From positions 1-27,414 of the IMG/VR virus record IMGVR_UViG_3300022926_001291: DNA of 27,414 nucleotides. The stretch is one strand, 5' to 3'. This stretch comes from a virus. Below are positions 6,863 to 27,414 of this stretch, piece by piece; position 1 is the first letter of the stretch; each line of letters starts with the position of its first letter. The notes under the pieces were generated by a model. That model made no database searches, was not told the origin of the DNA, and saw nothing but the letters and a program-made list of their open reading frames with translations. The translations under genes and the position numbers were made by a program.

Positions 6863-6871
6863 TATTATCCT

Positions 6872-7903
6872 TTACTTACAACGTAACCATCTTTCGTTTG
6901 CTAGTGTCCATTCAACAACCTGACCAATACGTTCAGTGAGTGCTACCTTTGGTTCCCATCCTAACTGTTTCATATATTCACCACTTAACGCATAACGTAA
7001 ATCATGTCCTGGACGTGCTGAGTGGAAGTCAACCATTTCATACTTTAATTCTTTGCCCTGTGCGTCAGCAATAATTTGAGCCAATTGTAGATTATTAATT
7101 TCTTCAGCACCTACTAGATTAAACTTAGGGCATTTAGCATCACCATAGTCTGGTTCAAGTTTACTAGCATCAATATCTAACAAGAAATGTAGAGCTTCTG
7201 CGACGTCAGCGGCATGAATATAAAAACGACTTCCTGGAATAGTTTTTGTGCTATCACTGTGGATAGTAATTGAATCACCGTCATTTACTTTACGAATACA
7301 CATTGGTATATATTTTTCTGGGTGCTGTCTTTGCCCAAACACGTTCATAGTGTGTGTAACAAAAATTGGCATCTTATAGGTATTTTCCCAAGCAACTGCT
7401 AGTTCTTCGCCACCTGCTTTAGTTGCTGAATATGGATTTGATGAATTGTAACGATCACGTTCACTATAATTAACACCTGAGGGTGCTGGCCCAAACACTT
7501 CATCTGTTGAAAAGTAAACAAAGCGTTCTAGGTTATCTATTTTACGAGCATATTCAAGTATATTTGCTGTACCTACTACATTGTCTTGTACAAACTCTAA
7601 TGGGTGTGTGATAGAACGATCTACATGACTACCTGCGGCCAAGTGTAAGACAATATCAATTGGTCCAATATCGTTAGCTACCAGTGGATTAATTTCTGCT
7701 CGTAAATCATGAAATACTACTCTGACTCGTTTTTTAATTTCAGGCGTAAACTCCTCCATCATGTCGTAGACACGATTAAGATTACCAGAAAAGTCTAGTC
7801 TATCTAAACTAACAATATTCCAGTCTGTATTCTCTAAAATATGATGTATGACATGATGACCAACAAATCCTGCGCCGCCTGTTACTAAGACGTTTTTTGA
7901 CAT
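6872..7903 (-). CDS. NDP-glucose 4,6-dehydratase, RmlB-like
   Basis: This 343-residue extended SDR has GGAGFVG at 9-15, HLAAGSHVDRS (87-97), the catalytic triplet Thr133-Asp134-Glu135 within STDEVFG, and Tyr158/Lys162 (YSATK). The TDE triplet separates 4,6-dehydratases from ordinary epimerases. The reaction converts NDP-glucose to the 4-keto-6-deoxy sugar, the usual entry to deoxy-sugar pathways. The length matches RmlB. Its product would feed the methyltransferase and epimerase encoded next. GGAG lies about 8 nt upstream of the ATG, and a late-like box (7932-7939) lies 28 nt upstream. dTDP-glucose is the commonest substrate in the family, but CDP or GDP sugars cannot be excluded. Confidence 0.87.
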   Translation of the reverse strand: MSKNVLVTGGAGFVGHHVIHHILENTDWNIVSLDRLDFSGNLNRVYDMMEEFTPEIKKRVRVVFHDLRAEINPLVANDIGPIDIVLHLAAGSHVDRSITHPLEFVQDNVVGTANILEYARKIDNLERFVYFSTDEVFGPAPSGVNYSERDRYNSSNPYSATKAGGEELAVAWENTYKMPIFVTHTMNVFGQRQHPEKYIPMCIRKVNDGDSITIHSDSTKTIPGSRFYIHAADVAEALHFLLDIDASKLEPDYGDAKCPKFNLVGAEEINNLQLAQIIADAQGKELKYEMVDFHSARPGHDLRYALSGEYMKQLGWEPKVALTERIGQVVEWTLANERWLRCK

Positions 7904-8209: not shown

Positions 8210-9736
8210 TTAATGTCTAATTAAGTAGTCAAAAGCACCAAGCCCTGCGTTAGCACCTTCGCCCATAGCAATAATGATCTGTTTGTAAGGAATGTCAGTA
8301 CAGTCACCAGCGGCAAATACACCAGGCATTGAAGTAGCGTTGTGTTTGTCTATCTCGATCTCACCCCACTTGGTCAATGCCACTGATCCTTTTAACCAAT
8401 CTGTGTTAGGCACCAGACCTATTTGAACGAACACACCGTCTACGGCTAGTTCGTGTCTTTCATCTGTAGCACGATCAACATAGGTCAATCCAGTGACTTT
8501 TTCCTTACCTTTAATCTCTTTTGTTTCTGCGTTTGTGATAACAGTTACATTGTCTAAACTGATCAATCTGTTAACTAACACAGCGTCTGCTTTTAATTCC
8601 TCACCATATTCAATCACTGTAACGTGATCAACGATGTTGGCAAGATCAATAGCGGCTTCCACACCTGAATTACCGCCACCTACAACTGCCACAGGTTTAC
8701 CAATGAACAACGGTCCGTCACAGTGTGGACAGTAGGCTACGCCCTTACCGTTGTATTCTTTTTCACCTGGAACTCCCAACTGCCTCCATCGAGCACCCGT
8801 TGAGAGTATAACTGTTTTAGAGTGGAGTTCTGCTCCGTTCTCTAGTGTAACTCTTATTTTACCTTCAACACGTTCAATCTTCTTGGCACGCTGATGATGC
8901 ATGACATCAACAGGATAACTCTTAACGTGTTCTTCTAGTTGCTTAACTAGTTTAGGTCCTTCTGTTGCTTGTACTGATATAAAGTTTTCAATACCTAGAG
9001 TATCAACAACCTGTCCGCCAAATCTATCAGCAACAATACCTGTTTTTAATCCTTTACGTATTGTGTAGATTGCTGATGACGCACCAGCTGGTCCACCACC
9101 TACTACTAGGACATCAAATTCTGTTTTGTCGTTTAATTTTTCTGCTTCACGTGACTCAGCATTAGCATCTAACTTACGTAAGATCTCATCAAGTTCCATA
9201 CGTCCTTGATCCCATAACTCGTCATCTTTAAACATCATAGGAACTGACAGCACATTCTTCTCTTCCACTAACTCTGGATACAGAGCACCGTCAATCACAG
9301 TGTGACTTATGTTATGATTTAAGAACGCAATGGTATTAAATGCCTGAACAACGTCAGGACAGTTGTGGCAACTTAGACTAACATAGGTCTCAAAGTTGCC
9401 CTCAACTGGTAGTCGTTTAATTTGTTCTTTGGTCTCGTCATCTAACTTCATTGGATAACCGCCTGCCCATAGCAAGGCAATTACAAAGTTAGTAAACTCA
9501 TGACCCAATGGTATACACGCAAAGGTAATGCCAGTGTTACTAATCGTAAAACTAGGTGTACGATCTAACTCGTTCTTAATTAAAGTAATGCGTGGTTCTA
9601 TTGTGTGTATTTCTGTCAATAGATCCAACATCTCCTTGCCTTTATCTGACTCATCTACTGAGTAGTGTATGACAAACGGATGTTCTATCTTACCCAGATA
9701 CTCTGTTAACTGTGCTTTTATCTTTGCGTCTAACAT
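8210..9736 (-). CDS. ahpF: alkyl hydroperoxide reductase subunit F (peroxiredoxin reductase)
   Basis: This 508-residue protein is full length for AhpF. The N-terminal double thioredoxin fold carries the redox pair Cys123/Cys126 (CHNC). The thioredoxin-reductase-like part has the FAD site GGGPAGAS (213-220), the redox pair Cys336/Cys339 (CPHC), the NAD(P)H site GGGNSGVE (353-360) and the FAD-closing AAGDCTD (475-481). It passes electrons from NADH through FAD and the two disulfides to AhpC. All key residues are present, so activity is expected. Its ATG shares one base with the ahpC stop (TAATG), implying translational coupling, and a terminator follows. Finding this pair inside a T4-like phage region is unusual. 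Confidence 0.95.
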
Positions 9737-10299
9737 TAAATTTTACCTACTAGATCTAAACTTGGTGTTAAGGCTTCTTGACCTGCTGACCAGTTTGCTG
9801 GACATGCTTGGTTTGGATTTGCTCTAACGTGTTGTGCGGCCATTACTTTACGCACTAGGTCTTTGGCACTTCTGCCAATACCTAAATCATTTACTTCTGC
9901 TGTTTTAATTATGCCATCTGGGTCAACAATAAAAGTACCACGTAATGCTAGTCCTTCTTCTTCAATCATAACATCAAAGTTTCTTGCTAGTGTACCTGTT
10001 GGGTCACCTAACATTGGGTATGTAATCTTTTTAATTGTGTCACTGGCATCGTGCCATGCTTTGTGTGTGAAATGTGTGTCAGTTGATACTGAATATACTT
10101 CTACACCTAGGTTTTGTAGTTCACTGTAGTGATCTGCTACGTCACCTAATTCTGTTGGACATACAAATGTAAAGTCTGCTGGGTAGAATACAAACACTGC
10201 CCATTTGCCTTTTAAGTCCTCTTCTGTTACTGTTTTAAATTCACCGTTGTGAAATGCTTCTGCTTTAAACGGTTTTACTTGTGTGTTGATTAAACTCAT
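9736..10299 (-). CDS. ahpC: alkyl hydroperoxide reductase C, typical 2-Cys peroxiredoxin
   Basis: This 187-residue protein has the length and motifs of bacterial AhpC: the peroxidatic Cys47 inside FVCPTE with Pro40 and Thr44 of the active-site PxxxT, and the resolving Cys166 in ACPANW near the C-terminus. It reduces hydrogen peroxide and organic peroxides in the cytoplasm and is re-reduced by AhpF, encoded directly downstream. TAGGAGAG 6-8 nt before the ATG is a strong ribosome site. An isolated TATAAT (10335-10340) and palindromes further upstream are the only visible control elements. A protective role during infection or a role in sustaining host metabolism is inferred. Confidence 0.95.
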
Positions 10300-11021: not shown

Positions 11022-12097
11022 TACAGTAAATGATTAGTAAACCAATCTTGTGGAGCGGAATTATTGTGATCAAATTCAATATCAAAGCATTTCATTGGAA
11101 CACGAGTTGCTGATAAAAATGAGGCATTTCTTGCTTGGTGTAATTGAGTTATATTTTGATCTAAATTAACATCAAACTCACTGATATGATCTTGCCAAAA
11201 TAAAGGAACATCTTCAGTACACCATCTAAAGTCAGCACCATTGGCACTAACATTGTATAACCACTCAGCCGCTGAGTATAAATTAATCCATCCGTCTTTC
11301 CTGTCAGGGTATCCTACACGTACTTTTAGCTCCTTTTCAAAAAATCCTTCTGGTACATATAAAGGAGGTACTATGTTATCGCATCCTTTACCTACATGAC
11401 TGTAGCCTTCATAGTGTCGAACAATTTCTTTAGTTGGGGCATAGACAGTACTAGGACAATTATAGCCATGGTAAGCACCTAGGTAATCGGGCTTGAACAT
11501 TAGAGCATCGCCATAATCTCGTTCCCAGTACTGCTTTAGCCTTCCTGCTTTGAGAATCATTATACCATCAAATGTTTCCCAATTAAACTTAATAAAATTT
11601 TTATCTGATGTTAGTTCACCTTTAAGGTGATAACTCATACGCATCTGTTCTGGCCAATGACTATAATATACTAAAGCATTGGGATCAGGATCGTTATTTA
11701 ATGTTTGTATTGCTGAATGAATTATGTTTAAATCTGAATCTAAGAATATGTGATCATCGTTTGCGGCCAACCATACCAGTTCATTAGGATCTGTCAACAA
11801 TTCATCCATGTTCTGTCGCCAGTCACGACCAAAGTCGTTTCTCTTCCATTTTAATTGTAGTTTTTCCTCTGGAAACAGTTCATAGATGTATTGTTCTAAC
11901 TCAGCCTGCCTGTGTGCTAGTTCAGGAGCCAGGGTGATATAGAAAGCATACTTTGTGACTACAGGATCTAATGCCCGTGTACTAGCCAGGCAATATTTAA
12001 ATACATCAAAGCGTTCTGGATTAGGCATCCAGGCACCACGTGTGTATGGATAACCCATGCGAACATCAGTTATCTTAACATTGAATAATACTATCAT
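11021..12097 (-). CDS. glycosyltransferase-like protein of the second sugar block
   Basis: This 358-residue protein begins with an IVLFNVKIT strand, then has a KYAFYITLAPEL segment (49-60). It carries a likely metal or nucleotide-sugar motif AANDDHIFLDSD (111-122), equivalent in position to the DxD of GT-A folds. No signal peptide or membrane span is seen, so it should act in the cytoplasm. The tail from about residue 250 has no recognised motif. It overlaps the aldolase gene by 4 nt (ATGA) and the DUF2452 gene by one base. It probably transfers the sugar made by the preceding genes; the family assignment is from fold-level pattern only. Confidence 0.6.
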   Translation of the reverse strand: MIVLFNVKITDVRMGYPYTRGAWMPNPERFDVFKYCLASTRALDPVVTKYAFYITLAPELAHRQAELEQYIYELFPEEKLQLKWKRNDFGRDWRQNMDELLTDPNELVWLAANDDHIFLDSDLNIIHSAIQTLNNDPDPNALVYYSHWPEQMRMSYHLKGELTSDKNFIKFNWETFDGIMILKAGRLKQYWERDYGDALMFKPDYLGAYHGYNCPSTVYAPTKEIVRHYEGYSHVGKGCDNIVPPLYVPEGFFEKELKVRVGYPDRKDGWINLYSAAEWLYNVSANGADFRWCTEDVPLFWQDHISEFDVNLDQNITQLHQARNASFLSATRVPMKCFDIEFDHNNSAPQDWFTNHLL

Positions 12098-13077
12098 CTT
12101 AAATTTTGAGTATATGTGTCAAAGATATCATACATAACACTATCAACTTCTGCTTGCCAGTTGACACCTTGACTTTCTAGTTTTTTAATTATATTTTTGT
12201 ATTCTTTAGATTTGAAACAGTAATGACCTGCTACATTAACTCGTTGTGTAGCATCTGAAGATTTAGTCCATTTAGACCAATTGTTACTTTTTATAACGAG
12301 ATTATGAAACTTTTCCCATTCTTTTGTAGCATATTTAGAGCTTAAAATTCTTAACAATTTAGTCTGTGCTACTCCAAGTTGTGGTGCTATGTTTAAAGCA
12401 TGTACCCCAGCATCTTGACGCATCTTAACTTCCGCTGGTGTAAGATAATCAGCATTATGTTCCTTTAGTTTTACTCCATTTTCATTAGCAACCTGTACTA
12501 GTTCAACAGCGGCATCATAATTGAACTCACCTGCTTGATGATCTTCATGACATAGGCTTCCTGTCTGTGCTACCACTGTGTAGATGTTTGGCATGTTCTT
12601 AGCAAAGGCAACATCTTCTTTGTATTTGATCTTGCCTGCGGCTACACCTACATTTTCTTCAGTGCCAAATTCAAAACGTACATTAGGATTAAGTCTTAGG
12701 GCAAATTTAAATAGTTCTTCAGCAACACCATATGTATCTTCAACTCTGCATGTGTCAATATGTATCAAATCAAAACCTTGCTCAATATCATAGGCAATAG
12801 TTTTTTTAGTTGCTTCAATAGCACGATACAATGATAAATCTTTTTCTGAATCTAAGAAGTACGGTCCGCAATGATCTCTACATATCCATAAGTTTTCTGT
12901 AGGTAATGTACTTAATAGTTCTCGTAATTGAGGTGTTGTCATCACATAGCCCGACTCAGCATCTACTTGATTACGACTAGCAATTATCATCAATGGTTCC
13001 ATATAATTCTCAGCATACGTAGCCATTGACTTTATAACTTCTGGACTCATTGGCCCAAAACCTAATCTAAAATTCAT
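12094..13077 (-). CDS. GatZ/KbaZ-like class II aldolase-type protein
   Basis: This 327-residue protein resembles the non-catalytic subunit family of D-tagatose-1,6-bisphosphate aldolase (GatZ/KbaZ), which has a TIM-barrel fold. The clues are LGFGPMSPEVI near the start, a strand followed by CRDHCGPYF (about 65-73) matching the family's GGDHLGP region, DLIHIDTC (about 103-110), FEFGTEENVG and a later VVAQTG strand. It is shorter than typical GatZ (about 420 residues). It is flanked by a HAD phosphatase, a sugar nucleotidyltransferase fusion and a glycosyltransferase, so it probably supplies or rearranges a phosphosugar for surface glycan synthesis. True substrate and whether it is catalytic alone are unknown. 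Confidence 0.7.
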   Translation of the reverse strand: MNFRLGFGPMSPEVIKSMATYAENYMEPLMIIASRNQVDAESGYVMTTPQLRELLSTLPTENLWICRDHCGPYFLDSEKDLSLYRAIEATKKTIAYDIEQGFDLIHIDTCRVEDTYGVAEELFKFALRLNPNVRFEFGTEENVGVAAGKIKYKEDVAFAKNMPNIYTVVAQTGSLCHEDHQAGEFNYDAAVELVQVANENGVKLKEHNADYLTPAEVKMRQDAGVHALNIAPQLGVAQTKLLRILSSKYATKEWEKFHNLVIKSNNWSKWTKSSDATQRVNVAGHYCFKSKEYKNIIKKLESQGVNWQAEVDSVMYDIFDTYTQNLR

Positions 13078-13537
13078 GTTCTATCCCCATTTTATCCATT
13101 ATATAAACACAGGCATCTAGTACAGCACCTTGACCTCCTGCTCTAGGAGTGACATAGTCGGCATTAGTAATGGCAGTGCGCCAAGCCTGTGCTGGAGCAA
13201 TACCTAATCCTACATAAGGAAATATCTTAGCATCATAAGGACCATCGCCCATAAACACTGTTTCTTCTGGATTTCCTTTGTTTAATACAAAATCTAATCT
13301 ATCTGCTTCTTTAACACATGTCAATGGAAACTTCATATGTGTTACTATACGACTTTCTGTAATTGGCCAACCTTGACGATCGGCTGAGATAAATTCTATT
13401 TCAATTTTGTCTCTAAGAAATTTAAGTCCATCATGATCATAGTTGCCAAACGCTTTAAACGGTTTGCCATCTGGTCCCCAGTACAACATACCGTCATTGA
13501 GTACTCCATCCACATCTAATATAAATCTTTTATACAT
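13067..13537 (-). CDS. HAD-family phosphatase, KdsC-like
   Basis: This 156-residue protein is a compact HAD phosphatase. Motif I is DVDGVLNDG (8-16, nucleophile Asp8 and acid Asp10), motif II is the Ser of ISADR, motif III lies around the Lys of the VKEADR segment, and motif IV is GDGPYDAKIF (about 97-106). This is the layout of KDO-8-phosphate phosphatase, a capless enzyme that works as a tetramer. It probably dephosphorylates an intermediate between the aldolase and nucleotidyltransferase encoded on either side. Both neighbours overlap it (11 nt and 8 nt). KDO itself is not implied, because no KdsA or KdsB homologue is seen. Confidence 0.85.
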   Translation of the reverse strand: MYKRFILDVDGVLNDGMLYWGPDGKPFKAFGNYDHDGLKFLRDKIEIEFISADRQGWPITESRIVTHMKFPLTCVKEADRLDFVLNKGNPEETVFMGDGPYDAKIFPYVGLGIAPAQAWRTAITNADYVTPRAGGQGAVLDACVYIMDKMGIEHEF

Positions 13538-15071
13538 CTAATACCTTTGAAAAATGTAATTGTGCTAACGCTATTAGGAATTTGTCAAATGGTGGTTCAT
13601 GTAGTGGACTCATATTTAAATATATTATAGGAACTAGCATTTTAACTTTTTTCCAATTCAGATTGTTTTTAATTGTCCAGGAGTACAACACATCCTCATA
13701 GTGTTTAACATTTGATATACTAGGACATTCTAAAGTAACATAGTCATCTTTTTCATGATAGCTATAACGCTCATGTTTGATATCTTTATAACTTTGATGT
13801 AGCCCACCTAACATCTTACCTAGGTCATAATATTGATCACCGTATAAACTTCCACCAAAATCAGTACGCCAATCAATGGCAGTAAATTTATCTGTTGTAG
13901 AGTTGTAGATTGTATTGTCGAAATGTAGGTCACCATGTACAAATTTCCAACTAACTTCACTACATAACCAATCCCAATCTATTTTAGCAAGATATTGATC
14001 TATGCTTAAGACTTCTTTACCATTTACTACGCAAGGTTCAGACCAATCGGCATATTTAACTCGAAACATTTCAACACGTTCCATTGTTTTATCATGATAA
14101 AACTTCCAACAAATTTCCTTAGTAATGTCCAGTTCAGGAGCATCTTTCCATAATGTTGTTTCGCACCAAGTTAACATTTTATCAAACACTTCTGGAGTAT
14201 ATTGATTATAAACAATATCTCCATTGGCAAAATCATGTATTAGAAAATTTCCTGCTTGTTCAACATTACTAGGCATAGCCGATGCGTTAACATTAGCACG
14301 TTGTACACGCTTTTCTGCTTGTTTTGTTTCGGTCCAAAATTTAATAATTTTTTTATTATCGTTGTAGAATAATTCATTAGGTTTAGGAAAACTAACATCA
14401 GTAAGGTCTGCTGTTAATTCTTCCCATTTTTCATAAGTTCCAAAATCTTTCCACTGTCTAATAGTGTGTGCTTTTAGATCTAACCCAGCAAATCCTTCAT
14501 ATGTTTCTTTAGCATTTCTTAATTTAAGATTATCTAAATAACTATCATCTTTAGCATACATTAATCCAACAAAAGCATCTACAGCAGATTTACTTGCTAC
14601 TTTGTTTTCAACATTGACTATAGTTTCTCCATCACGTTCAATCCAACAATAGTCTTGAGAAATACTACTATCGACTGGATGTACTCCAATCCAATTATGA
14701 TCTAGTTTGTCCTTATAGTCAAACTCAAATAAGGTATCGCAGGCCAGCCACATAAAGCCACCACGTATATGTTCTTCACACATCTGTATTGTTGTAGCAG
14801 GTCCTGTGTCGCCTTCAGCATAATTATCAATATCAACAAATACAACATTTTTATCTTTGTGTACAACACTGACATAGTCTTTGATATATTGACCCATATG
14901 ACCACAAGCAATAACAAACTTTGTTGTAGTATCAAACTTTTCAATTATATGACTGATCAATGGTTTATTATCATAAGGAATTAATGCTTTAGGAACCATA
15001 CGACTAAATGGACCCATTCTACGTCCATATCCAGCGGCTAATATTAAAACAGTTAAACTATTGTTGCTCAT
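13530..15071 (-). CDS. fusion: sugar-phosphate nucleotidyltransferase + APH/choline-kinase-like kinase
   Basis: This 513-residue protein joins two enzymes. Residues 1-230 form a nucleotidyltransferase with LILAAGYGRRMGPFS (9-23), PKALIP (27-32) and a CDTLFEFD metal-binding strand (111-118). Residues 270-513 form a phosphotransferase of the APH/choline-kinase class with the catalytic HGDLHFDN (379-386) and the metal-binding Asp400-Trp401. The pairing resembles LicC plus LicA or combined kinase-nucleotidyltransferases that activate a sugar or alcohol as an NDP derivative. The start is ATG 15069-15071: a TTG 12 nt upstream sits directly against the GGAAGGA ribosome site and would be too close. 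It overlaps the cupin gene by 14 nt. The substrate is unknown. Confidence 0.85.
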   Translation of the reverse strand: MSNNSLTVLILAAGYGRRMGPFSRMVPKALIPYDNKPLISHIIEKFDTTTKFVIACGHMGQYIKDYVSVVHKDKNVVFVDIDNYAEGDTGPATTIQMCEEHIRGGFMWLACDTLFEFDYKDKLDHNWIGVHPVDSSISQDYCWIERDGETIVNVENKVASKSAVDAFVGLMYAKDDSYLDNLKLRNAKETYEGFAGLDLKAHTIRQWKDFGTYEKWEELTADLTDVSFPKPNELFYNDNKKIIKFWTETKQAEKRVQRANVNASAMPSNVEQAGNFLIHDFANGDIVYNQYTPEVFDKMLTWCETTLWKDAPELDITKEICWKFYHDKTMERVEMFRVKYADWSEPCVVNGKEVLSIDQYLAKIDWDWLCSEVSWKFVHGDLHFDNTIYNSTTDKFTAIDWRTDFGGSLYGDQYYDLGKMLGGLHQSYKDIKHERYSYHEKDDYVTLECPSISNVKHYEDVLYSWTIKNNLNWKKVKMLVPIIYLNMSPLHEPPFDKFLIALAQLHFSKVLDV

Positions 15072-15531
15072 GTTCAGAATCAATCCTTCCGTGCCCTCTG
15101 TTCGCAGAGTCTTCTAATCTAATCACGTCATCTAACTGTGTAGTACTTGCTTCAGTATAATGTAAATCTTCATGAGCTACCATACGATGAATAGTATTTG
15201 GTGGAGTATGAAACACAGCACCTGGCGCTAGTTCTTGTGTAACTAGTTCACTTTTAATCTGTGCTATTTCTTGTTCAGTATATCCACCATCAAGAAAACG
15301 TTGGCAATCAAATGGATCAGGATGGTACAATAATGCTCCGTGGCCTTGATGTAAATGTATGGACTCAGATTTATATTGATGAACTTGTAAACTTGTTACA
15401 AATCCTGCTCGTAGTATTAATTCTTTAAGAGCAAAAGGATATATGTCACTGCCGGGCATTAACCATGTTTCTTGCCCCCACGGTTTGTGTACGACGTGGC
15501 AGTCTTCAATTCGATGGAATTCTACTGTCAT
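15058..15531 (-). CDS. cupin protein, sugar-phosphate isomerase-like
   Basis: This 157-residue single-domain cupin opens with VVHKPWGQETW (13-23), a motif of the C-terminal cupin of mannose-6-phosphate isomerase/GDP-mannose pyrophosphorylase enzymes. It then has LILRAGFVTSLQVHQYKSE (38-56) and IHLHQGHG (58-65), which supply candidate metal ligands (His and Glu). The later FHTPPNTIHRM segment gives the second cupin motif. A stand-alone cupin in a sugar cluster usually acts as an isomerase or epimerase, or binds a sugar phosphate. An isolated TATAAT (15551-15556) lies 20 nt before the ATG. It is the first gene after the acyltransferase and is overlapped by the fusion gene. Confidence 0.7.
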   Translation of the reverse strand: MTVEFHRIEDCHVVHKPWGQETWLMPGSDIYPFALKELILRAGFVTSLQVHQYKSESIHLHQGHGALLYHPDPFDCQRFLDGGYTEQEIAQIKSELVTQELAPGAVFHTPPNTIHRMVAHEDLHYTEASTTQLDDVIRLEDSANRGHGRIDSEHEQQ

Positions 15532-15550
15532 TGTTGATTTACCTAGGTTT

Positions 15551-15556
15551 ATTATA
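15551..15556 (-). promoter_or_regulatory. possible -10 box before the cupin gene
   Basis: TATAAT on the minus strand lies 20 nt before the cupin ATG. No -35 match is present, so it could be a weak or activator-dependent promoter, or a chance hit. Confidence 0.25.
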
Positions 15557-15580
15557 TATGTATTTAACTTATTTTAATTT

Positions 15581-16285
15581 TCACAGATTATTTCTGAACG
15601 CTACTCTATTTCTTAATATTGCTGTAGTATTTGGTTTTAGATCTTTATTAACCAGAACATGAGCATGTATTTTACAGTCATCGCCTATAGTAACGTTTTC
15701 TTGTTTTGAACTATGTCCATTTAATACTGTTGCTCTTGTGCCTACATAAACATTATTACCTAAAATAACGTTACTCATCAGATACGCACCAGCAGATAGT
15801 ATACAATTATCACCTACTTTTGTGTCTGTAGCAATACCAGAATTGTCTAAAAAGTTACAGTGTTCCCCTATTTCAACTCCGCCTCTGATATTAACATTTC
15901 TGCTGATAAACGTGCCTTGACCAACTTTTACATTTTTACTTAACATACTCTGTGGGTCAATTAATGTGTGGCATTCTAACTTGTTGTCTTTAATAAATTT
16001 CATATGTTGTAATCTTAACTGATGCCCATTTGCTACAGTAGATTCTACATTACTATTACCATCCCAAAATGTACCAATAAAGAACTTAGCATCTCCAAAT
16101 TTCTTTGGATTTTCTATTAAATCAAGTTCACTACCAAGACAAGGCAATCCTCCTACGCTGTCTACTCTTCCAGCATATAGTTGATCAACAAAACCAAGCA
16201 CTGGTATTTCTAATGCGTCACAGGTTTCAGTGATCCAATCCCAGGTTTGTCTAGCACCTATTAATACTAATGGTTGTTTTTTCAC
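15581..16285 (-). CDS. PglD-like sugar O/N-acyltransferase (left-handed beta helix)
   Basis: This 234-residue protein has an N-terminal Rossmann-like sugar-binding part (PLVLIGARQTWDW, residues 5-17) and a C-terminal hexapeptide-repeat acyltransferase domain with turns such as KNVKVGQGTFIS and VIGNNVYVGT-type repeats. This is the PglD/NeuD layout: the enzyme transfers an acetyl group from acetyl-CoA to an amino or hydroxy group of an NDP-sugar. The start is GTG 16283-16285, because GGAG lies 9 nt upstream; a TTG at 16300 would place that GGAG inside the gene. A consensus promoter lies upstream (16325-16353). No aminotransferase is visible nearby, so O-acetylation may be more likely. Confidence 0.82.
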   Translation of the reverse strand: MKKQPLVLIGARQTWDWITETCDALEIPVLGFVDQLYAGRVDSVGGLPCLGSELDLIENPKKFGDAKFFIGTFWDGNSNVESTVANGHQLRLQHMKFIKDNKLECHTLIDPQSMLSKNVKVGQGTFISRNVNIRGGVEIGEHCNFLDNSGIATDTKVGDNCILSAGAYLMSNVILGNNVYVGTRATVLNGHSSKQENVTIGDDCKIHAHVLVNKDLKPNTTAILRNRVAFRNNL

Positions 16286-16316
16286 TGATGTTAACTCCAA
16301 CGGTAAATATAGTTAT

Positions 16317-17117
16317 ATGTTTAAATTATACAGCCTAATAAAGAACTCGTCAAATTATTCTCAAACACTTTATATACAAACAGCGATGTATATAACTGTT
16401 TTGGTAGGATTAATCACAAATTTTAATTTTGGTTTATTACTAGTAGGTCTGATATTAGGATGGTTATTATTTTGTTTTGGTGTAAGCATTAGCCTACATA
16501 AATTTATCAGTCATCGTTCGTTTGATGCTCGAAACAGATTTGTTAAATTACTATTACTATGGTTAGGAACACAAACTACTCTAGGTAGTCCCATTGGTTT
16601 TGCCGCAGGACATAGACAACACCATTTAGACAGTGATGGCGACACTGATCCATTTAAGTTAGAAAACAATATGTGGCATAATATCAAATTATGGTTTTAT
16701 CGTTTTCCTTTAAACACTATTAGCCCCAGACTAGTTAAAGACTTATCAAAAGATCCAGACTTTAAATTTTTTCATAAAAACTATTGGAAAATTTGGAGTA
16801 TACTACCAATTACAATATTAATTATTAGCCCTGTATATTTTGTTTACTTTTTTGCTATTCCGGTTGTTTATTGTTTTGTGGGTATGAGCTATGTTACTGT
16901 TGTTGCTCATTCTAAAACATGGCAACGACTTTTCCGTGGTACCAATGAATTCAATGATCTGGATGACAGTTGGGACAGTAACTTCTTTACTTACTTGTTT
17001 GCTGGCGAAGGATTCCATCACGCACATCATGTTGATCCAACTCAATATGATTATGGAAAAACAAACAATAGATTTGATTTTTCTGGAACTGTTATAGAGA
17101 AATTACTTAAAGACTAA
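16317..17117 (+). CDS. membrane fatty-acid (acyl) desaturase, plus-strand copy
   Basis: This 266-residue protein has the three histidine boxes of stearoyl-CoA/acyl-lipid desaturases: HKFISH (61-66), HRQHH (99-103) and HHAHH (234-238). Hydrophobic segments at about 24-57, 75-92 and 160-192 match the usual membrane layout. These di-iron enzymes add a double bond to a fatty acyl chain in the inner membrane. The start MFK matches its paralogue on the other strand. No Shine-Dalgarno sequence precedes it, and a longer frame opening at a GTG (16230) would run into the opposing acyltransferase gene, so it was rejected. This is the only plus-strand gene in the window; its stop interlocks with that of the paralogue. 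Confidence 0.85.
   Translation: MFKLYSLIKNSSNYSQTLYIQTAMYITVLVGLITNFNFGLLLVGLILGWLLFCFGVSISLHKFISHRSFDARNRFVKLLLLWLGTQTTLGSPIGFAAGHRQHHLDSDGDTDPFKLENNMWHNIKLWFYRFPLNTISPRLVKDLSKDPDFKFFHKNYWKIWSILPITILIISPVYFVYFFAIPVVYCFVGMSYVTVVAHSKTWQRLFRGTNEFNDLDDSWDSNFFTYLFAGEGFHHAHHVDPTQYDYGKTNNRFDFSGTVIEKLLKD
16325..16353 (-). promoter_or_regulatory. sigma70-like promoter for the acyltransferase and cupin block
   Basis: On the minus strand, TTGACG (16348-16353), a 17-bp spacer and TATAAT (16325-16330) form a promoter. It lies inside the first codons of the oppositely oriented desaturase gene, an overlap that could cause interference between the two directions. Confidence 0.72.
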
Positions 17118-17935
17118 ACGTGATATTTTTGAGAATATTCAGATTTCTCTGGTACACGACCAATTAACTTAATCATCCAGAAACCTAAATCCCAATCTCT
17201 TTCAGTAAATTTATTACTAGCCGCACCTGGTTGTGTGTGATGATTATTATGATTACCATCGCCAGGAACAAACACTGATGCTATCTTACTATTAAAAGTT
17301 AAGTCAGTGCTAGGAAAGTTTGTATAACCAATCCACTCATACAAGTATCTATTATGTGCTAACACAGTAATATAACTAATAGCCTGGAACGCATAGATAA
17401 TTGGCAAGAAGTAAAAGTATGTTGCCACCTTAGGTGATATTAAAAATAAGATTAAGAACCAACCTAGATTTATTTTAAAATAATGTTTGTGAAAAAACTT
17501 ATGATCTTTATCAATTGATAAGTCTTTTACTGTTCTTGGGTTGATATGATATGTTGGGAAGTAGTAGAACCATAGTCTAACGCTACGCCACCAGCCACCG
17601 CCATTGATGTTGGGTGAATGGGGATCACCTTCGTGATCAGAATAATTATGATGCTTACGATGTGTACATGCCCAACTAATATTTGAGCCTAAACTTAACA
17701 CAGTTGATGAAAACAACATCATTATTTTAAAGAATCTATTCTTTGGTTCAAATGATCTATGGCTTGAGTATTTGTGTAATCCACAGGCCGCACCTATTAG
17801 GAATATTATCCAACTATATCCTAATCCTACTAGTAACCATAGCCAATCAAAGTATAATATAATACCTGTTAGGAGTCCTATATAGGCAAATGCCTGTAAT
17901 AATTTAACTTTAGTATCGAGGGTAAATTTAAACAT
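17114..17935 (-). CDS. membrane fatty-acid (acyl) desaturase, minus-strand copy
   Basis: This 273-residue protein is a paralogue of the plus-strand desaturase, with the same box order: HKYSSH (54-59), HRKHH (92-96) and HNNHH (229-233). Membrane segments lie at about 12-50, 70-90 and 156-195. The boxes are intact, so it should bind the di-iron centre. It follows the tRNA genes on the same strand, beginning 24 nt after tRNA-Glu, so it may be read from the tRNA promoter. A TATAAATA late-type box lies 7 nt before the ATG. Its stop (TAG) and that of the plus-strand copy (TAA) share bases. Two divergent copies may act on different positions or chain lengths; this is inference. Confidence 0.87.
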   Translation of the reverse strand: MFKFTLDTKVKLLQAFAYIGLLTGIILYFDWLWLLVGLGYSWIIFLIGAACGLHKYSSHRSFEPKNRFFKIMMLFSSTVLSLGSNISWACTHRKHHNYSDHEGDPHSPNINGGGWWRSVRLWFYYFPTYHINPRTVKDLSIDKDHKFFHKHYFKINLGWFLILFLISPKVATYFYFLPIIYAFQAISYITVLAHNRYLYEWIGYTNFPSTDLTFNSKIASVFVPGDGNHNNHHTQPGAASNKFTERDWDLGFWMIKLIGRVPEKSEYSQKYHV

Positions 17936-17958: not shown

Positions 17959-18034
17959 TGGTACACCCAAGGGGATTCGAACCCCTGTTGCCGCCGTGAA
18001 AGGGCAGTGTCCTAGGCCTCTAGACGATGGGTGC
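17959..18034 (-). tRNA. tRNA-Glu (anticodon UUC), CCA encoded
   Basis: This 76-nt cloverleaf has the acceptor strands GCACCCA/TGGGTGT, discriminator A and an encoded CCA at 17959-17961. The anticodon loop CTTTCAC gives UUC, read for GAA/GAG. The T arm is AGGGG-TTCGAAT-CCCCT, and the D-loop and variable loop are of ordinary length. The first acceptor pair is a G-U wobble. It is the last of three tRNA genes in a cluster. Confidence 0.95.
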
Positions 18035-18041
18035 CTATAAA

Positions 18042-18117
<76 letters not shown>

Positions 18118-18125
18118 ATATAAAC

Positions 18126-18215
18126 TGGCGGAAGTGGTAGGATTCGAACCCACGGACCAGTTTCCCGGTCGACGGTTTAGTAAACCGTTGCTTTAAGCCG
18201 CTCAGCCACACTTCC
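18126..18215 (-). tRNA. tRNA-Ser, long variable arm, apparent anticodon ACU
   Basis: This 90-nt type II tRNA has the acceptor GGAAGTG/CACTTCC, discriminator G (as in bacterial tRNA-Ser) and an encoded CCA. The D arm is GCTGAGCGGCTTAAAGC, and a 14-nt hairpin forms the variable arm. The anticodon stem ACGGT/ACCGT encloses TTACTAA. By standard numbering U33 is followed by A34-C35-U36, so the anticodon is ACU, reading the AGU Ser codon. Bacterial AGY-reading tRNA-Ser normally has GCU, so this is one base different. It is the first gene after the tRNA promoter. Confidence 0.9.
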
Positions 18216-22011: not shown

Positions 22012-23142
22012 TTAATCCTCTGTTACTTCGTGGACATCACCGTGTCCATCAACTGTTAATTTTATTGTTTCTTCTACTGCTGGTTCTACTGTTTCTTCTT
22101 CAACATCATTACTTAGTCTTTTTAGGCTAGAACTTATTTCTTTCATAGCGATGTCTAAGCAACCTTCTTCATTGTTTTCCCATGCTTTACGGAACTGTTT
22201 AATTTCTGTTCCATCAACTGTGGTGTATACTAACCTGTTACCTTCTTTTTTAAGTAGTCCCTTGCCTTCTAGCATATCAGTTAGTCCTGAGTAAGGATTC
22301 ATACCTGTTTCATATGGAATCTTAACCTGTACTGATTCAAAAGGTTTAGCATATCTAGTTTTCATAACTTTACATGCGGCTCTGATACCTTTAACTTCTG
22401 ATATCTTGTTACCATCTTCATCTTCTTTTAGTTTTAGTTTACGCATAGCAACTACAATTGATGAAGCGTAGATAAAGCCTTGTCCACCTGATATCTTGTC
22501 ATCTGGATCAAACATATCCTGTGAAGCATAAGTATGGTTAGTACATACCAAGCCTACGTTGTGTGAGCCAATCATGTTAACAGTATTACGGACCAATGAA
22601 GTTAGTGCCTTAGGCTTACGACCCATATCACCTTTCATATCACCTTTTTGGAACTGATCCACATCTGTTGGAGTAAGTAACATACCTAAACTATCAATAA
22701 CAAACATCACTTTAGGACGTTCTTCATCTGGTAGTGTTTTATAGTCTTTCATAAATTCACTAATTGTTTTAGCAACGTCATCAATCATAGCCATGTTTAG
22801 TTTTAGAAGTTTATCTTCTGAAACATCTACACCTAGTGCTGTTAACCAAGATTCATCTAGTGCGTTTTCTGTATCAATTAATACAACATAGATACCCTGT
22901 GCCTGTGCTGATTTGATAATGTTACCTGAACAAATATATGATTTACCTGCACCAGATTCACCAGCAAATACTGTAACTTTACCTAGTGGAATACCACCAT
23001 TGAAGTCACCACTAATCAAATAGTTTAGTGTGTAGTTACCTGTTGATACCCAGTCAGTTGGATCGTTAAATCCAATACCAAGTCCATCAATGCTTTTAGT
23101 TAAAGTTTTACGAAACTTTGAAACGTCAAACGGTTTTGCCAT
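22012..23142 (-). CDS. uvsX: UvsX, RecA-like recombinase
   Basis: This 376-residue protein has a RecA fold with Walker A GESGAGKS (61-68), an ATP-binding Walker B region FVIDSLGM (147-154), a further GQGFIYASS segment, and an N-terminal region typical of T4 UvsX rather than bacterial RecA. It forms filaments on single-stranded DNA and drives strand exchange for phage recombination-dependent replication. The length is close to T4 UvsX (391). GAGGG lies upstream of the ATG at 23140-23142. It begins 2 nt after the radical-SAM stop, so it is probably read from that cassette or from a promoter beyond the visible consensus. The C-terminal tail is acidic, as in UvsX. Confidence 0.9.
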   Translation of the reverse strand: MAKPFDVSKFRKTLTKSIDGLGIGFNDPTDWVSTGNYTLNYLISGDFNGGIPLGKVTVFAGESGAGKSYICSGNIIKSAQAQGIYVVLIDTENALDESWLTALGVDVSEDKLLKLNMAMIDDVAKTISEFMKDYKTLPDEERPKVMFVIDSLGMLLTPTDVDQFQKGDMKGDMGRKPKALTSLVRNTVNMIGSHNVGLVCTNHTYASQDMFDPDDKISGGQGFIYASSIVVAMRKLKLKEDEDGNKISEVKGIRAACKVMKTRYAKPFESVQVKIPYETGMNPYSGLTDMLEGKGLLKKEGNRLVYTTVDGTEIKQFRKAWENNEEGCLDIAMKEISSSLKRLSNDVEEETVEPAVEETIKLTVDGHGDVHEVTED

Positions 23143-23144
23143 AA

Positions 23145-24296
23145 TTATGTGCCCTCTAATAAATCATAAAATTCTTTGAAAATCTTTCTACTATTTACGC
23201 CTCGTCTTTGATCCATTTTTGTTATTTCCTCTAAACATCGTTTAATATTTTTTTCTGCAGGCGTATTAATATATTGTAACATGTTTTTTAAACTGTTTTC
23301 AAGTAAAAAACCTGGTTTTTTATTTAACCACAGTTGAATATCAGACTTTACTAAGTCTAACATATTATTTGGTAAATGTCTAATATTTAGGTAAAATGGA
23401 TTAGCCAATGGACCAACAATAAAACTATTATTATGAAATTTTAAAGTTTGTAAAAAATTAATACAAGTAAAAATTGATCTAAAATTTAATAGATGATGTA
23501 ACATATTAAATGATACTTTATGATCTAATGTTCTTACTATGTTTAGATTATCTAAAAACTCTTGCCAATTACCACCATACCTCACGTATTCAAATTCTTC
23601 TTCAATCTCGTCAATACTAATTATCCAATGTACATTTTTAAACTGACATATTAAATCAAATACAGGTGTGCCTGTTTTACTTAAATTAGTATTAACTCTA
23701 AGATTAACATTAGGATTACGTTTAAGTAATTCCCTTAATAACATTTCGTTTTCTTTCATTAGTAGTGGTTCACCGCCTGCTAGATAAACGTGTTTAAGTT
23801 GATGTGCATTATCGAATACTAACTTTTTAAGTTCTGCTACACGCTCAGGTGGTGGTTCTTCTACTTTTATTTTTAGTTCGTGTGCAAGTTTACTTGAATA
23901 CTTTGGACTACAATACATGCAGGCTTGGTTACAGTTATTTGACCAACGTATATCTATCTTGTGTAAACTAAAATTATCAATTTGATCATACAATGTATTA
24001 TCAACTGTTTTTAGTTCTTTAAGATAAAATATACGATCACTGATCATATCGTATCCTTTTTTATCCCCTTCTAGATTATAACAGACATTACATCCTAGTC
24101 CAGGTTTATTATCAAGCATATTTTTTTTAGTTTCTGTGTTTTCTGCTAGTATGTCATGTATACCTTTATCTTTAAGGTTACCTATAGGTCTTTGGCTACG
24201 GATACAATTAAGAACATCTCCGTTAGAATTGTACATAAAACCGGTCCAGGGTATAGGACAAAATTTATTGTTAGTTAAGTAATCTTTAGGATTCAT
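23145..24296 (-). CDS. radical-SAM enzyme, twitch/SPASM-like
   Basis: This 383-residue protein has the radical-SAM cluster motif CNQACMYC (122-129) and a GGEPLL motif (172-177), which hold the 4Fe-4S cluster and SAM. Additional Cys at 13, 31, 69 and 72 precede the core and probably bind a second cluster in an N-terminal SPASM-like part. Such enzymes start radical reactions by reductive cleavage of SAM. The start is ATG 24294-24296; a TTG 12 nt further upstream lies directly against the AGGAG ribosome site and is rejected. It overlaps the SDR gene by 11 nt. No precursor peptide is seen next to it. Confidence 0.8.
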   Translation of the reverse strand: MNPKDYLTNNKFCPIPWTGFMYNSNGDVLNCIRSQRPIGNLKDKGIHDILAENTETKKNMLDNKPGLGCNVCYNLEGDKKGYDMISDRIFYLKELKTVDNTLYDQIDNFSLHKIDIRWSNNCNQACMYCSPKYSSKLAHELKIKVEEPPPERVAELKKLVFDNAHQLKHVYLAGGEPLLMKENEMLLRELLKRNPNVNLRVNTNLSKTGTPVFDLICQFKNVHWIISIDEIEEEFEYVRYGGNWQEFLDNLNIVRTLDHKVSFNMLHHLLNFRSIFTCINFLQTLKFHNNSFIVGPLANPFYLNIRHLPNNMLDLVKSDIQLWLNKKPGFLLENSLKNMLQYINTPAEKNIKRCLEEITKMDQRRGVNSRKIFKEFYDLLEGT

Positions 24297-24831
24297 TGGT
24301 GTAATCAACTCCTAAACTTAACTCGTAAACTTTTAATGTTGGGTCAATACGTTCTAGTGTGTCAACTACTTTTTCTGCCCACACATCAACATTACATGCT
24401 CTAGGTCCACTATGCTCACCGGTTAATACTTCGCCTGGCTTAATCAACACCAGTTGCGGCCATTCCTGTCTGTGTGCTAGGTCCCAGTGTGCAGTCTCTA
24501 ATGCCTGTTTTTGATTTTTATATTCAAGCATGTTTGCTTCGTCGACTAACGGATTTAAGGTCATCATGGTGCTGATGTTTATGATCTGTTTACCGTTAAC
24601 ATCGCGCCAACGTCTTGATATTTCAAACAACAATTCTGTTTGTGCGTATCCTGATTGTGCATTGTTAATAAACCAATCACAAGGCTCAATTTGGTCTGCT
24701 ACCTTAGGTAAACTACGAATGTTATAGCCATTACGACGACTAAGACCCACAATTTCATGTCCACGTTGCTCGTATTGTTTGGCCAGTGCCTGACCTATGC
24801 CTGCTGAATGTCCGGTAATTGCTATTTTCAT
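24286..24831 (-). CDS. short-chain dehydrogenase/reductase
   Basis: This 181-residue protein has the SDR nucleotide-binding motif TGHSAGIG (6-13), NNAQ (about 55-58) in the place of the usual NNAG, and a Tyr-xxx-Lys pair (YKNQK, about 123-127). It is short for the family (usually about 250 residues) but keeps the core. It lies between two radical-SAM genes, with an ATGA overlap to the upstream one, implying a joint pathway. The substrate is unknown. Confidence 0.8.
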   Translation of the reverse strand: MKIAITGHSAGIGQALAKQYEQRGHEIVGLSRRNGYNIRSLPKVADQIEPCDWFINNAQSGYAQTELLFEISRRWRDVNGKQIINISTMMTLNPLVDEANMLEYKNQKQALETAHWDLAHRQEWPQLVLIKPGEVLTGEHSGPRACNVDVWAEKVVDTLERIDPTLKVYELSLGVDYTNES

Positions 24832-25826
24832 TGATAGTAATCTTTGTAATTGATTCCTCTTAGTTCATCTTGCTGTTCAATAAATGCCAATAACTGTTTT
24901 GTGTTATTTTCTAACGTGGCAATTTTATCTAACAACGGCAATACTTCTTGATTCTTACTCTGTAATAGTTTTTCTCGAGCATCTAGTGTTAACCAGTTTT
25001 TGTATCTAATGTCTAACATCTCAGGTTGATTTAATAATGCCCAACTGTGATCTAACCCATGTTCATTTTTAAAATCAATAATGTTAGCAAAGTTGCCTAC
25101 ATTTAAACTATTTACAGTTGTCCATAGATTAAGATTGTTTATACCCATGGCTTTATATTTCATTAGGTTACTATAAAACTTATCCCATTTAATTGGCCAT
25201 CTTACATAATCATGCACCTGGCCAATGCCATCAAAACTTACTGTGACTGTGACATGTATGCCTCGTTCTAGTAATGCTTCTAATTCGTTGATAACTAATG
25301 CACAGTTAGTGTTAATTCTTATGCTACGAACACTTTTAGGAGGGTCACGTAGTATGTCTCTATAATTTTTACTAGCACTAGGTTCCCCACCATTGATGTC
25401 TAAATGTACCACTCTATCTAAAGGTAATGCCCAAAATCTTTTACTGTTATCATATATCGGATAATGTTTACTAGCCAATCCGCCTATCTTTGTACTTAGT
25501 TCTTCACTACAAAATTGACAGGCTGAATTACACACGTTGTCTAATATGCCACCTACTGTGAGATAGTCTTTTTGCTTTTGTAGTTTATCAAACTTTAGAG
25601 CATTTAATCTAATACTAGAGTTAGATAGTTCTTCTGTTTGCTGACATCTAACACATTCTTTAGGCCATTGGTCCTTTTCAAATGTCTGTTTTAGATTGGA
25701 CATCCATTCACTGTTTTGCATTTCTTCGTATGAATCGAATGTTGGTTGATTAATCATATGTCCGCAACAACTTACTTTACCATCAGGATGAAACCTAACA
25801 AAATGATCTGGTCTAGGACAGTACAT
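24828..25826 (-). CDS. second radical-SAM enzyme, twitch/SPASM-like
   Basis: This 332-residue protein has the cluster motif CNSACQFC (99-106) and NGGEPSAS (about 144-151). Additional Cys residues at 3, 20, 21, 58 and 61 lie in an N-terminal part resembling the SPASM/twitch module, the same reversed order as in the neighbouring radical-SAM protein. This suggests the two are related by duplication. It overlaps the sulfotransferase-like gene by 14 nt and the SDR gene by 4 nt. The substrate is unknown; a peptide-modifying role is possible, although no precursor was found. Confidence 0.8.
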   Translation of the reverse strand: MYCPRPDHFVRFHPDGKVSCCGHMINQPTFDSYEEMQNSEWMSNLKQTFEKDQWPKECVRCQQTEELSNSSIRLNALKFDKLQKQKDYLTVGGILDNVCNSACQFCSEELSTKIGGLASKHYPIYDNSKRFWALPLDRVVHLDINGGEPSASKNYRDILRDPPKSVRSIRINTNCALVINELEALLERGIHVTVTVSFDGIGQVHDYVRWPIKWDKFYSNLMKYKAMGINNLNLWTTVNSLNVGNFANIIDFKNEHGLDHSWALLNQPEMLDIRYKNWLTLDAREKLLQSKNQEVLPLLDKIATLENNTKQLLAFIEQQDELRGINYKDYYQ

Positions 25827-26475
25827 CAGTTACTCCAACGATTGTGTTGCTTTTACCAATGGTTTCAAAAAATGCTGTTGGTTCTCTGTTCATAATATGT
25901 GCTAGTATCTGTTTACGTGTCCAACTGTTACCTATTAATCCTAACAACGCACGATCTAGTTTTTGATAGTGTTCATTTTTAATGTTGTTTTTTAGTCTTG
26001 TTATAGTTGCTTGGTCTAATATTTTATCTTCGTTACCAGGTATGGCATGTATTGAAGTATAGTCACTGATCTTTTCCATACCAACAAAATTAAATTTAGT
26101 ACCTTCGTCAGTATATCTAAATAAGTTAATCAACCAACTAAGTTGTGGAGCATAATGTCTATTTAAAAACAAATAGTTTTCAACAAAATATAAAATAGTA
26201 TCTTTTGAAAAACTAGGATATTCTGTAATTAAATTCCACACAAATGTATTAACACCGCTAATAAATCTTTCTTCCGGTTCTCTAATGATAACGTCTATAG
26301 AGTTAATACGTTTAAGTTGTTCATTAAATAATATTTTATATTTTTTTAAATGTGCTTCTTCGTATAAACTTGATCTACCATTTTTAAAAATAGGATAGAT
26401 GAACCGCTGTGAGGGTTTTATTTCTATTACCTCACAGCGATTAGGATAGATTACGTCGTCTAATCCGCTTAACAT
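25813..26475 (-). CDS. sulfotransferase-like protein
   Basis: This 220-residue protein shows the two phosphate-binding motifs of PAPS-dependent sulfotransferases: IFKNGRSSL (29-37) for the 5'-phosphosulfate loop and REPEERFISG (65-74) for the 3'-phosphate. NRHYAPQ (105-111) resembles the HxxPQ region of carbohydrate sulfotransferases. The protein is shorter than most members and lacks a membrane anchor, so it would act in the cytoplasm. It would transfer sulfate from PAPS to a sugar or other acceptor. It sits in one run with the radical-SAM and SDR genes between gp32 and uvsX. Confidence 0.7.
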   Translation of the reverse strand: MLSGLDDVIYPNRCEVIEIKPSQRFIYPIFKNGRSSLYEEAHLKKYKILFNEQLKRINSIDVIIREPEERFISGVNTFVWNLITEYPSFSKDTILYFVENYLFLNRHYAPQLSWLINLFRYTDEGTKFNFVGMEKISDYTSIHAIPGNEDKILDQATITRLKNNIKNEHYQKLDRALLGLIGNSWTRKQILAHIMNREPTAFFETIGKSNTIVGVTDVLS

Positions 26476-26493: not shown

Positions 26494-27414
26494 TTAAGAC
26501 TTACGATTGCGAATCATCGCTAGGATGTCTTCAGCACGTTTGCTACCACTTTCACCTGCCGGTGTTTCTACTGGTGCAGTAGGAGTCGCGTCTGCTGTTG
26601 TTTCTTCTACTTTAGGAGCCTCAACTGCTGGTGCTGTTGTTGCTTCTTGTGTAGGTTTTGACTCTGCAGTTCCTGTTGCAGGTGCTGGTGTTGTAACTAC
26701 CTGAACGCCTCTTGGACGATAGTAATTACCCCAACGCTCAGCGTCATATGCCTGTCCATCCACAGATGCTTCGAACATCTCTTTCATAACTTTTAATTCT
26801 ACTTCGCTTGGTTTCTTAGGAAGGAAGTCGCCTAGGTTGTGAAGACCATATTGTTCAATAGCGCCACTTTCTGTAGCGTCTAGTGCTGATTCCTTACGTG
26901 ACCATTTTGAAGTTGAATAATCTGCATAACCACCTTTAGATGTTTTAGTAATAATAAAGTCTAAACCACCTTGGTAGTCTGTTGGTAAGTTTTCTAATTC
27001 TGGATCTAGTAAAGCCGCCTTGATCAAGTTAAAGATCTGTGGACTAATAATAAATCTACGAATTGGATTTTCTGGTGTTTGATCTTCAGTGATTGGGTTT
27101 TCTCTTACAAAGCCTTGGAATAGATATGATTTCTTTTTCCAATACTTACGACCCATATCCTCTAAACTAGGATCTTTGAACCAAGTTCTTACTTCTGCAA
27201 GAATAGGACATGCTTCACCCCACATTTCTACACATGGTACCTGTACCACAACTGGTTTACTATCTGCTGATCCTTTAACGCCAGCAAATGGTAAGTTAAT
27301 CATGTTACGTTCTACCCAAAAGAATGTATTGTCTGTGTTTGCGTCTGGTAAAAATCTAAGTTTGGCTGTGTCGCCTTCTTTAATATTCCAGTGTGCGTAG
27401 ATAGCGTTGTCGCC
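26494..27414 (-). CDS. gp32-like single-stranded-DNA-binding protein (N-terminus beyond window)
   Basis: The frame is open to the right edge, adding 37 residues before the first internal Met; the true start is outside. The sequence DTAKLRFLP followed by FFWVERNMINLPFAGVKG matches the core of T4-like gp32. The protein coats single-stranded DNA during replication and recombination with UvsX. In the T4 zinc region only two Cys are visible (PCVEMWGEACPI), so the zinc site of T4 gp32 appears altered. The C-terminal part has an Ala/Pro/Thr/Glu-rich linker and ends in a conserved-looking RAEDILAMIRNRKS helix rather than the acidic T4 tail. The stop is at 26494-26496. Confidence 0.85.
   Translation of the reverse strand, partial: GDNAIYAHWNIKEGDTAKLRFLPDANTDNTFFWVERNMINLPFAGVKGSADSKPVVVQVPCVEMWGEACPILAEVRTWFKDPSLEDMGRKYWKKKSYLFQGFVRENPITEDQTPENPIRRFIISPQIFNLIKAALLDPELENLPTDYQGGLDFIITKTSKGGYADYSTSKWSRKESALDATESGAIEQYGLHNLGDFLPKKPSEVELKVMKEMFEASVDGQAYDAERWGNYYRPRGVQVVTTPAPATGTAESKPTQEATTAPAVEAPKVEETTADATPTAPVETPAGESGSKRAEDILAMIRNRKS

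Follow-up and report, generated by a model that had tools for sequence, protein, structure and literature searches.

A sulfotransferase gene tied to two radical-SAM enzymes and a reductase in uncultured phages: a candidate unit for a sulfated product

The virus record IMGVR_UViG_3300022926_001291 from IMG/VR, analyzed here over positions 1 to 27,414 (the whole stretch of 27,414 bases is hereafter the window), carries a cassette of four enzyme genes between the genes for a gp32-like single-stranded DNA (ssDNA)-binding protein and a UvsX-like recombinase. All four lie on the minus strand and encode, in transcription order from gp32 to uvsX, a predicted sulfotransferase (ST), a radical S-adenosylmethionine (radical-SAM) enzyme (rSAM1), a short-chain dehydrogenase/reductase (SDR) and a second radical-SAM enzyme (rSAM2). 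The first-pass annotation of this DNA had proposed such a unit of enzyme genes with overlapping ends, and both the unit and its boundaries prove to be real. The genes and their motifs, followed by the flanking core genes, are:

25813 to 26475, minus strand: ST, predicted Sulfotransfer_2-like sulfotransferase of the 3′-phosphoadenosine-5′-phosphosulfate (PAPS) type, 220 aa, first gene of the cassette
26365 to 26397, minus strand: putative 5′-phosphosulfate-binding loop of ST (YPIxKNGxSSL, K31), from alignment conservation
26254 to 26283, minus strand: putative 3′-phosphate-binding motif of ST (RxPxxRxxSG, R65/R70/S73), from alignment conservation
24828 to 25826, minus strand: rSAM1, N-terminal-twitch radical-SAM enzyme, 332 aa, starting inside the end of ST
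25644 to 25820, minus strand: N-terminal twitch module of rSAM1 (C3, C21, C58, C61), from cysteine conservation
25509 to 25532, minus strand: CxxxCxxC radical-SAM cluster motif of rSAM1 (C99, C103, C106), invariant in 201 alignment rows
24286 to 24831, minus strand: SDR, short NAD(P)-dependent reductase, 181 aa
24793 to 24816, minus strand: TGxxxGIG cofactor motif of SDR, with G7, G11 and G13 invariant in non-gapped rows
24508 to 24522, minus strand: YxxxK catalytic motif of SDR (Y104, K108), invariant in 189 rows
23145 to 24296, minus strand: rSAM2, N_Twi_rSAM (NF033640), 383 aa from the corrected ATG
23910 to 23933, minus strand: CxxxCxxC radical-SAM cluster motif of rSAM2, invariant in 165 rows
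26494 to 27414, minus strand: gp32-like ssDNA-binding protein, flanking core gene with its 5′ end beyond the window (PHROG 1192, E 3.6e-52)
22012 to 23142, minus strand: UvsX-like recombinase, flanking core gene (PHROG 97, E 1.5e-72)

The genes are tightly packed: ST overlaps rSAM1 by 14 bases, rSAM1 overlaps SDR by 4, SDR overlaps rSAM2 by 11 (counted from the corrected rSAM2 start), and 2 bases separate rSAM2 from uvsX. The rSAM2 open reading frame (ORF), which extends to 24308, begins with TTG; because the methionine at residue 5 is shared by all 30 sequences compared, the start is most likely the ATG at 24296 rather than the TTG at 24308. Predicted promoters within the cassette do not rise above the level of shuffled sequence, and terminators are marginal. 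The closest DNA matches to gp32 and uvsX are in jumbo phages (PA5oct, CBB and 121Q among them), which share roughly 65-70% identity. In Sinorhizobium phage Phosso the two genes adjoin, only 78 bases apart, so the site can be empty of the cassette.

Scans of IMG/VR, which were seeded with cassette genes and do not show how many relatives are without the cassette, returned 554 stretches with rSAM1 relatives, at least 393 with ST and at least 521 with SDR. After duplicate removal, the matches listed comprise 127 distinct gp32-uvsX intervals (lineage A), all four genes being present in 119 of them; the earlier reading would have fallen had relatives carried a non-homologous gene order here, and instead the same gene set recurs at the site. 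The order is ST-rSAM1 then SDR-rSAM2 in 108 intervals and SDR-rSAM2-ST-rSAM1 in 11 of the 127. ST-rSAM1 occurs alone, with SDR and rSAM2 both absent, in 3/127; SDR or rSAM2 is singly absent in 5/127 (L047, L041, L197, L250, L080), and in most intervals the two are adjacent or jointly absent. Because the pairs move as blocks (the 11 swapped intervals) and SDR and rSAM2 are jointly absent in three, the cassette behaves as two modules, ST-rSAM1 and SDR-rSAM2. At the SDR-less loci L041 and L047, a 483-aa protein downstream of rSAM2 reads like an AMP-ligase and has no Pfam match.

A second lineage (B) of 28 contigs (L319-L346), several of which look like mutual duplicates, was recovered with the rSAM1 of L085 as seed. 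L085 itself is a 10-kb contig binned in a Porticoccaceae metagenome-assembled genome; it looks like phage, and its cassette adjoins a DnaB-like helicase gene. The lineage-B layout is SDR, often rSAM2, then ST and rSAM1, with a family designated f3 on one side and usually another, f9, on the opposite strand; where neighbors were tested, these cassettes lie downstream of genes for a DNA primase and a DnaB-like helicase. That the same gene set has been used at two sites, gp32-uvsX and primase/helicase, argues that its members function together. The f3 gene (157-182 aa) also stands next to SDR in 44/127 lineage-A intervals, and its HxD..H..R pattern, together with weak matches of two homologues to the Asp/Asn beta-hydroxylase family, suggests a probable 2-oxoglutarate (2OG)-Fe(II) oxygenase. 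Lipase_GDSL matches in 8 of 20 f9 members, with conserved Ser, Asp and His, lead us to call f9 an SGNH-like hydrolase, while assigning a third family, f7, to the glycosyltransferases is a guess; no convincing PDB sequence match was obtained for f3, f9 or f7.

Beyond these uncultured viruses the cassette leaves little trace. In cultured phage records, neither ST nor rSAM2 has a match, and rSAM1 matches only Vibrio phage proteins at 22%. A scan of cellular genomes for cassette homologues returned one phage-derived contig and one rSAM at 21%, and a cellular origin was set aside because no cellular homologue was obtained. We found no paper describing the cassette, and none joining sulfotransferase, radical-SAM enzyme and phage in a relevant sense.

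The cassette genes are under purifying selection, with a ratio of nonsynonymous to synonymous divergence (dN/dS) of 0.06-0.17 in close pairs where it is computable. As the arrangement recurs in hundreds of viral contigs at such ratios, it is not due to chance. Allele exchange was assessed in pairs whose gp32 and uvsX are similar; 14 were informative, about 11 of them independent because some share contigs. Synonymous divergence exceeds that of both flanks for ST in 13/14 pairs, SDR in 12/13, rSAM2 in 11/14 and rSAM1 in 10/14, and the excess is patchy (L055/L057: rSAM1 0.14 versus ST 0.60). A lower synonymous rate in strongly expressed core genes could account for an excess overall, though not for its patchiness; this gives good support to the prediction that recombination between conserved flanks exchanges cassette alleles, as would fit a trait under diversifying selection.

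Swapping of this kind fits an arms race with restriction, and the neighbors of the cassette are ssDNA-binding and recombinase genes in lineage A and primase/helicase genes in lineage B; both features would suit DNA hypermodification, in which a base, possibly via a sugar on the base, is edited by the 2OG oxygenase, the two radical-SAM enzymes and SDR, then capped with sulfate to resist host restriction. Hypermodification of DNA with glycans is known in phages (a paper on it is cited in PMC12619734). Against such a target, a base enzyme of the thymidylate-synthase type is found in only 1 of 16 phage records, most of them fragmentary, so that absences are weak evidence, and no DNA-modification family was matched in the cassette. 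We also know of no sulfated DNA base, and on balance consider this explanation improbable.

The identity of ST rests on several lines that converge. The window protein has no Pfam or NCBIfam match of its own, falling short of the gathering score of Sulfotransfer_2 (PF03567), a family weakly matched by 9 of 37 ST relatives (best E 0.0023). Its AlphaFold model (predicted local distance difference test score, pLDDT, 87.9) matches an uncultured Caudovirales "Sulfotransferase family" protein in BFVD (E 3e-15, template modeling (TM) score 0.79-0.86), and further BFVD matches are phage and giant-virus sulfotransferases. The four best PDB matches of the model, all weak, are heparan-sulfate sulfotransferases (3-OST, NDST), and the ST profile found nothing among PDB sequences. 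The PAPS-loop residue K31 is present in 173/173 aligned lineage-A rows, R65 and R70 are invariant in 200 rows, H107, Q111 and D174 are likewise invariant, and S73 of the 3′-phosphate-binding motif is present; the PAPS-binding roles are assigned from known sulfotransferase motifs rather than from a solved complex. Thus the relatives' weak Sulfotransfer_2 matches, the predicted fold and the PAPS-binding motifs together give good support to the prediction, already made in the first-pass annotation, that ST is a sulfotransferase. It resembles Sulfotransfer_2-type enzymes in the PAPS-loop lysine, the RxPxxRxxSG motif and the predicted fold, but the cassette STs are only about 200 aa long, their PDB matches are weak, and some lineage-B members are without the loop lysine; those with Arg or Val in its place include L336 and L342. 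A scan of 13 lineage-A records shows ST to be a single-copy gene; the only exceptions are a tandem duplicate and one weak match.

SDR gives weak adh_short/Epimerase matches in family searches and carries the classical-SDR motifs, a Rossmann motif TGxxxGxG and YxxxK, both invariant. The catalytic serine, S87, is present, with Gly in 17 of 189 rows. At 181 aa here and 162-191 aa in relatives, the protein is shorter than a classical SDR (about 250 aa).

Both radical-SAM proteins contain an N-terminal one-cluster (4-Cys) twitch domain ahead of the CxxxCxxC core, which is what the Cys-rich module noted at first sight turns out to be. In rSAM2 the twitch cysteines C17/C35/C73/C76 and the core cysteines C126/C130/C133 are kept in 165 rows; in rSAM1 the corresponding cysteines are kept in 201 rows, bar a few gapped rows in the twitch. 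The NCBIfam model NF033640 (N_Twi_rSAM) scores rSAM2 at 235 bits, above its cut-off of 170, and rSAM1 at 143 bits, below it, so that rSAM1 is a relative rather than a member. The architecture is that of the family, but NF033640 is a subfamily model to which no reaction is assigned, implies no sulfotransferase or SDR partner, and leaves rSAM1 in a distinct clade; to our knowledge no reaction of N_Twi_rSAM proteins has been described. The rSAM2 twitch profile matches BtrN, an aminocyclitol dehydrogenase. The two proteins can be aligned (28% identity, tblastn E 3e-10), as the first-pass annotation had required, but the simple duplication it had raised does not hold: in a maximum-likelihood tree built by a quick method, its careful search being unfinished, the rSAM1 proteins of both lineages form one clade and the rSAM2 proteins another (each 100 in the Shimodaira-Hasegawa-like approximate likelihood-ratio test, SH-aLRT), and rSAM2 joins other phage N-twitch radical-SAM proteins before rSAM1 (support 87). 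This separation into old clades rules out a recent tandem duplication, and the sequences indicate that rSAM1 and rSAM2 are old paralogues.

Large cassette-bearing records hold up to 15 N_Twi_rSAM proteins and up to 15 Pfam Radical_SAM matches each, and in four of them (L313, L314, L315, L316) tandem N_Twi_rSAM arrays occur apart from the cassette. As read by eye, without family-search confirmation, the arrays of L314 and L316 adjoin glycosyltransferase-like and SGNH hydrolase-like genes, and that of L314 is also near carbamoyltransferase-like, amidinotransferase-like and tail-fibre-like genes. Unusually many radical-SAM genes per phage have been described in the Campylobacter phages CP220/CPt10 (11-12 genes; PMC2853527) and in a T4-like marine genome (12 genes; PMC5332604); these papers, however, mention no sulfotransferase, so no ST-rSAM-SDR-rSAM unit has been described there. 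In pelagimyophages, radical-SAM cassettes lie in the host-recognition cluster (PMC7029224).

That location, like the tail-fibre-like gene beside a related array, would be expected if the radical-SAM enzymes modified a phage or host protein, either a structural protein or a substrate like a ribosomally synthesized and post-translationally modified peptide (RiPP), with the 2OG enzyme hydroxylating it, ST sulfating a side chain, and the substrate encoded away from the cassette. Many radical-SAM enzymes with SPASM or twitch domains mature peptides, the fold of rSAM1 resembles those of SkfB and SuiB, and the weak hydroxylase matches of the two f3 homologues point the same way. Yet the two lineages have no short-ORF family in common near the cassette, whose genes leave no intergenic space between them, which agrees with the first-pass remark that no precursor gene is visible and speaks against a RiPP-like precursor nearby; a short gene, f0 (81 aa, after uvsX), was seen in lineage A only and has no cultured-phage match. 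The nearest solved folds of ST, moreover, are carbohydrate rather than tyrosylprotein sulfotransferases. Modification of a protein or peptide therefore seems to us rather unlikely, if somewhat less so than modification of DNA.

Elsewhere in the window, positions 3177-7903 hold a likely sugar pathway (GT2-like, C-methyltransferase, NAD epimerase and GDP-mannose 4,6-dehydratase-like genes), and 12094-16300 hold GatZ/KbaZ-like and HAD-like genes, a sugar nucleotidyltransferase fused to an APH kinase, and weakly matching genes for a cupin and a hexapeptide transferase. A peroxiredoxin gene lies beside one for an AhpF/thioredoxin-reductase-like protein at 8210-10299, the PHROGs label "ribonucleotide reductase" for the latter being probably wrong; two fatty-acid desaturase genes are adjacent on opposite strands (16230-17935), and a tRNA trio, Glu(ttc), Thr(tgt) and Ser(act), occupies 17959-18215.

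Metabolic genes such as the desaturases and the peroxiredoxin would be in keeping with an auxiliary pathway making or altering a sulfated host metabolite or cell-surface glycan, for instance in superinfection exclusion. An adenosine-5′-phosphosulfate (APS)-kinase-family match occurs in only 1 of the 16 records, so PAPS probably comes from the host, which would also suit such a pathway. (That match is a P-loop protein, L316:6089-6520 (G004), near an N_Twi_rSAM array, and may be another kinase.) Apart from the phage-derived contig and the weak rSAM, however, the genome scan gave no cellular cassette homologue, so no host pathway is mirrored, and we judge a role in host small-molecule metabolism to be unlikely.

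Most likely, then, hundreds of uncultured phages carry an enzyme set that builds or edits a sulfated molecule. As a tentative but preferred interpretation, the cassette may be a tailoring unit of two pairs that oxidizes or reduces and then sulfates a sugar-like group with host PAPS. By analogy with known enzymes, rSAM2 would generate a 5′-deoxyadenosyl radical at its CxxxCxxC cluster and take a hydrogen atom from a carbinol carbon, with the electron passing to the one auxiliary cluster, in the N-terminal twitch, to give a ketone or a dehydrated intermediate, whose carbonyl SDR could reduce with NAD(P)H for net epimerization or deoxygenation, as in AprD4/AprD3. A second radical edit by rSAM1 would prepare the substrate that ST sulfates, and in many relatives the putative 2OG-Fe(II) oxygenase would add a hydroxyl and the SGNH hydrolase remove an acyl group. 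The product would probably decorate a phage-made glycoconjugate, either a virion glycan or a glycan on DNA.

A sugar-like substrate is our best guess given the sulfotransferase fold, the SGNH partner and nucleotide-sugar genes, enzymes of the GDP-mannose-dehydratase type being present in 9 of the 16 records and accompanied in the window by the C-methyltransferase, epimerase and sugar nucleotidyltransferase/kinase genes; it is favored by the nearest PDB folds of ST and by the glycosyltransferase-like, carbamoyltransferase-like, amidinotransferase-like and tail-fibre-like neighbors of N-twitch arrays elsewhere. Successive action of rSAM2 and SDR at a carbinol center is suggested by the BtrN match and by AprD4/AprD3 of the apramycin pathway, a radical-SAM dehydratase and an NADPH reductase acting on a sugar (PMC5461906); the likeness lies in the pairing alone, and AprD4/AprD3 work without a sulfotransferase.

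Several observations weigh against the sugar-tailoring interpretation. The best PDB fold match of ST, 3-OST, is weak (E 0.023, TM 0.33, probability 0.91), and the PAPS-loop lysine is absent from 9 of 25 lineage-B STs (Arg in 8, Val in 1, Lys in 16). The nearest folds of rSAM1 include the peptide maturases SkfB and SuiB, besides MoaA and BlsE, and the conserved unit itself holds no glycosyltransferase. In both lineages the cassette travels with replication genes, which fits DNA or an early target at least as well as the virion.

Reports of sulfation in phages are rare, and most of their radical-SAM enzymes have no assigned function. In this cassette a sulfotransferase that is almost always single copy goes together with two particular members of a large phage radical-SAM family, a reductase and two optional partners, and it does so in two genomic contexts. 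Conceivably, though we would not expect it, hundreds of uncultured phages make a sulfated, radical-SAM-edited hypermodification of an undescribed kind, on their DNA or virion glycans, diversified by allele swapping in an arms race with their hosts. The cassette offers a small, defined gene set for reconstitution, with the question of what is sulfated. It also opens a first way into the function of N_Twi_rSAM proteins, of which a single phage record can encode up to 15.

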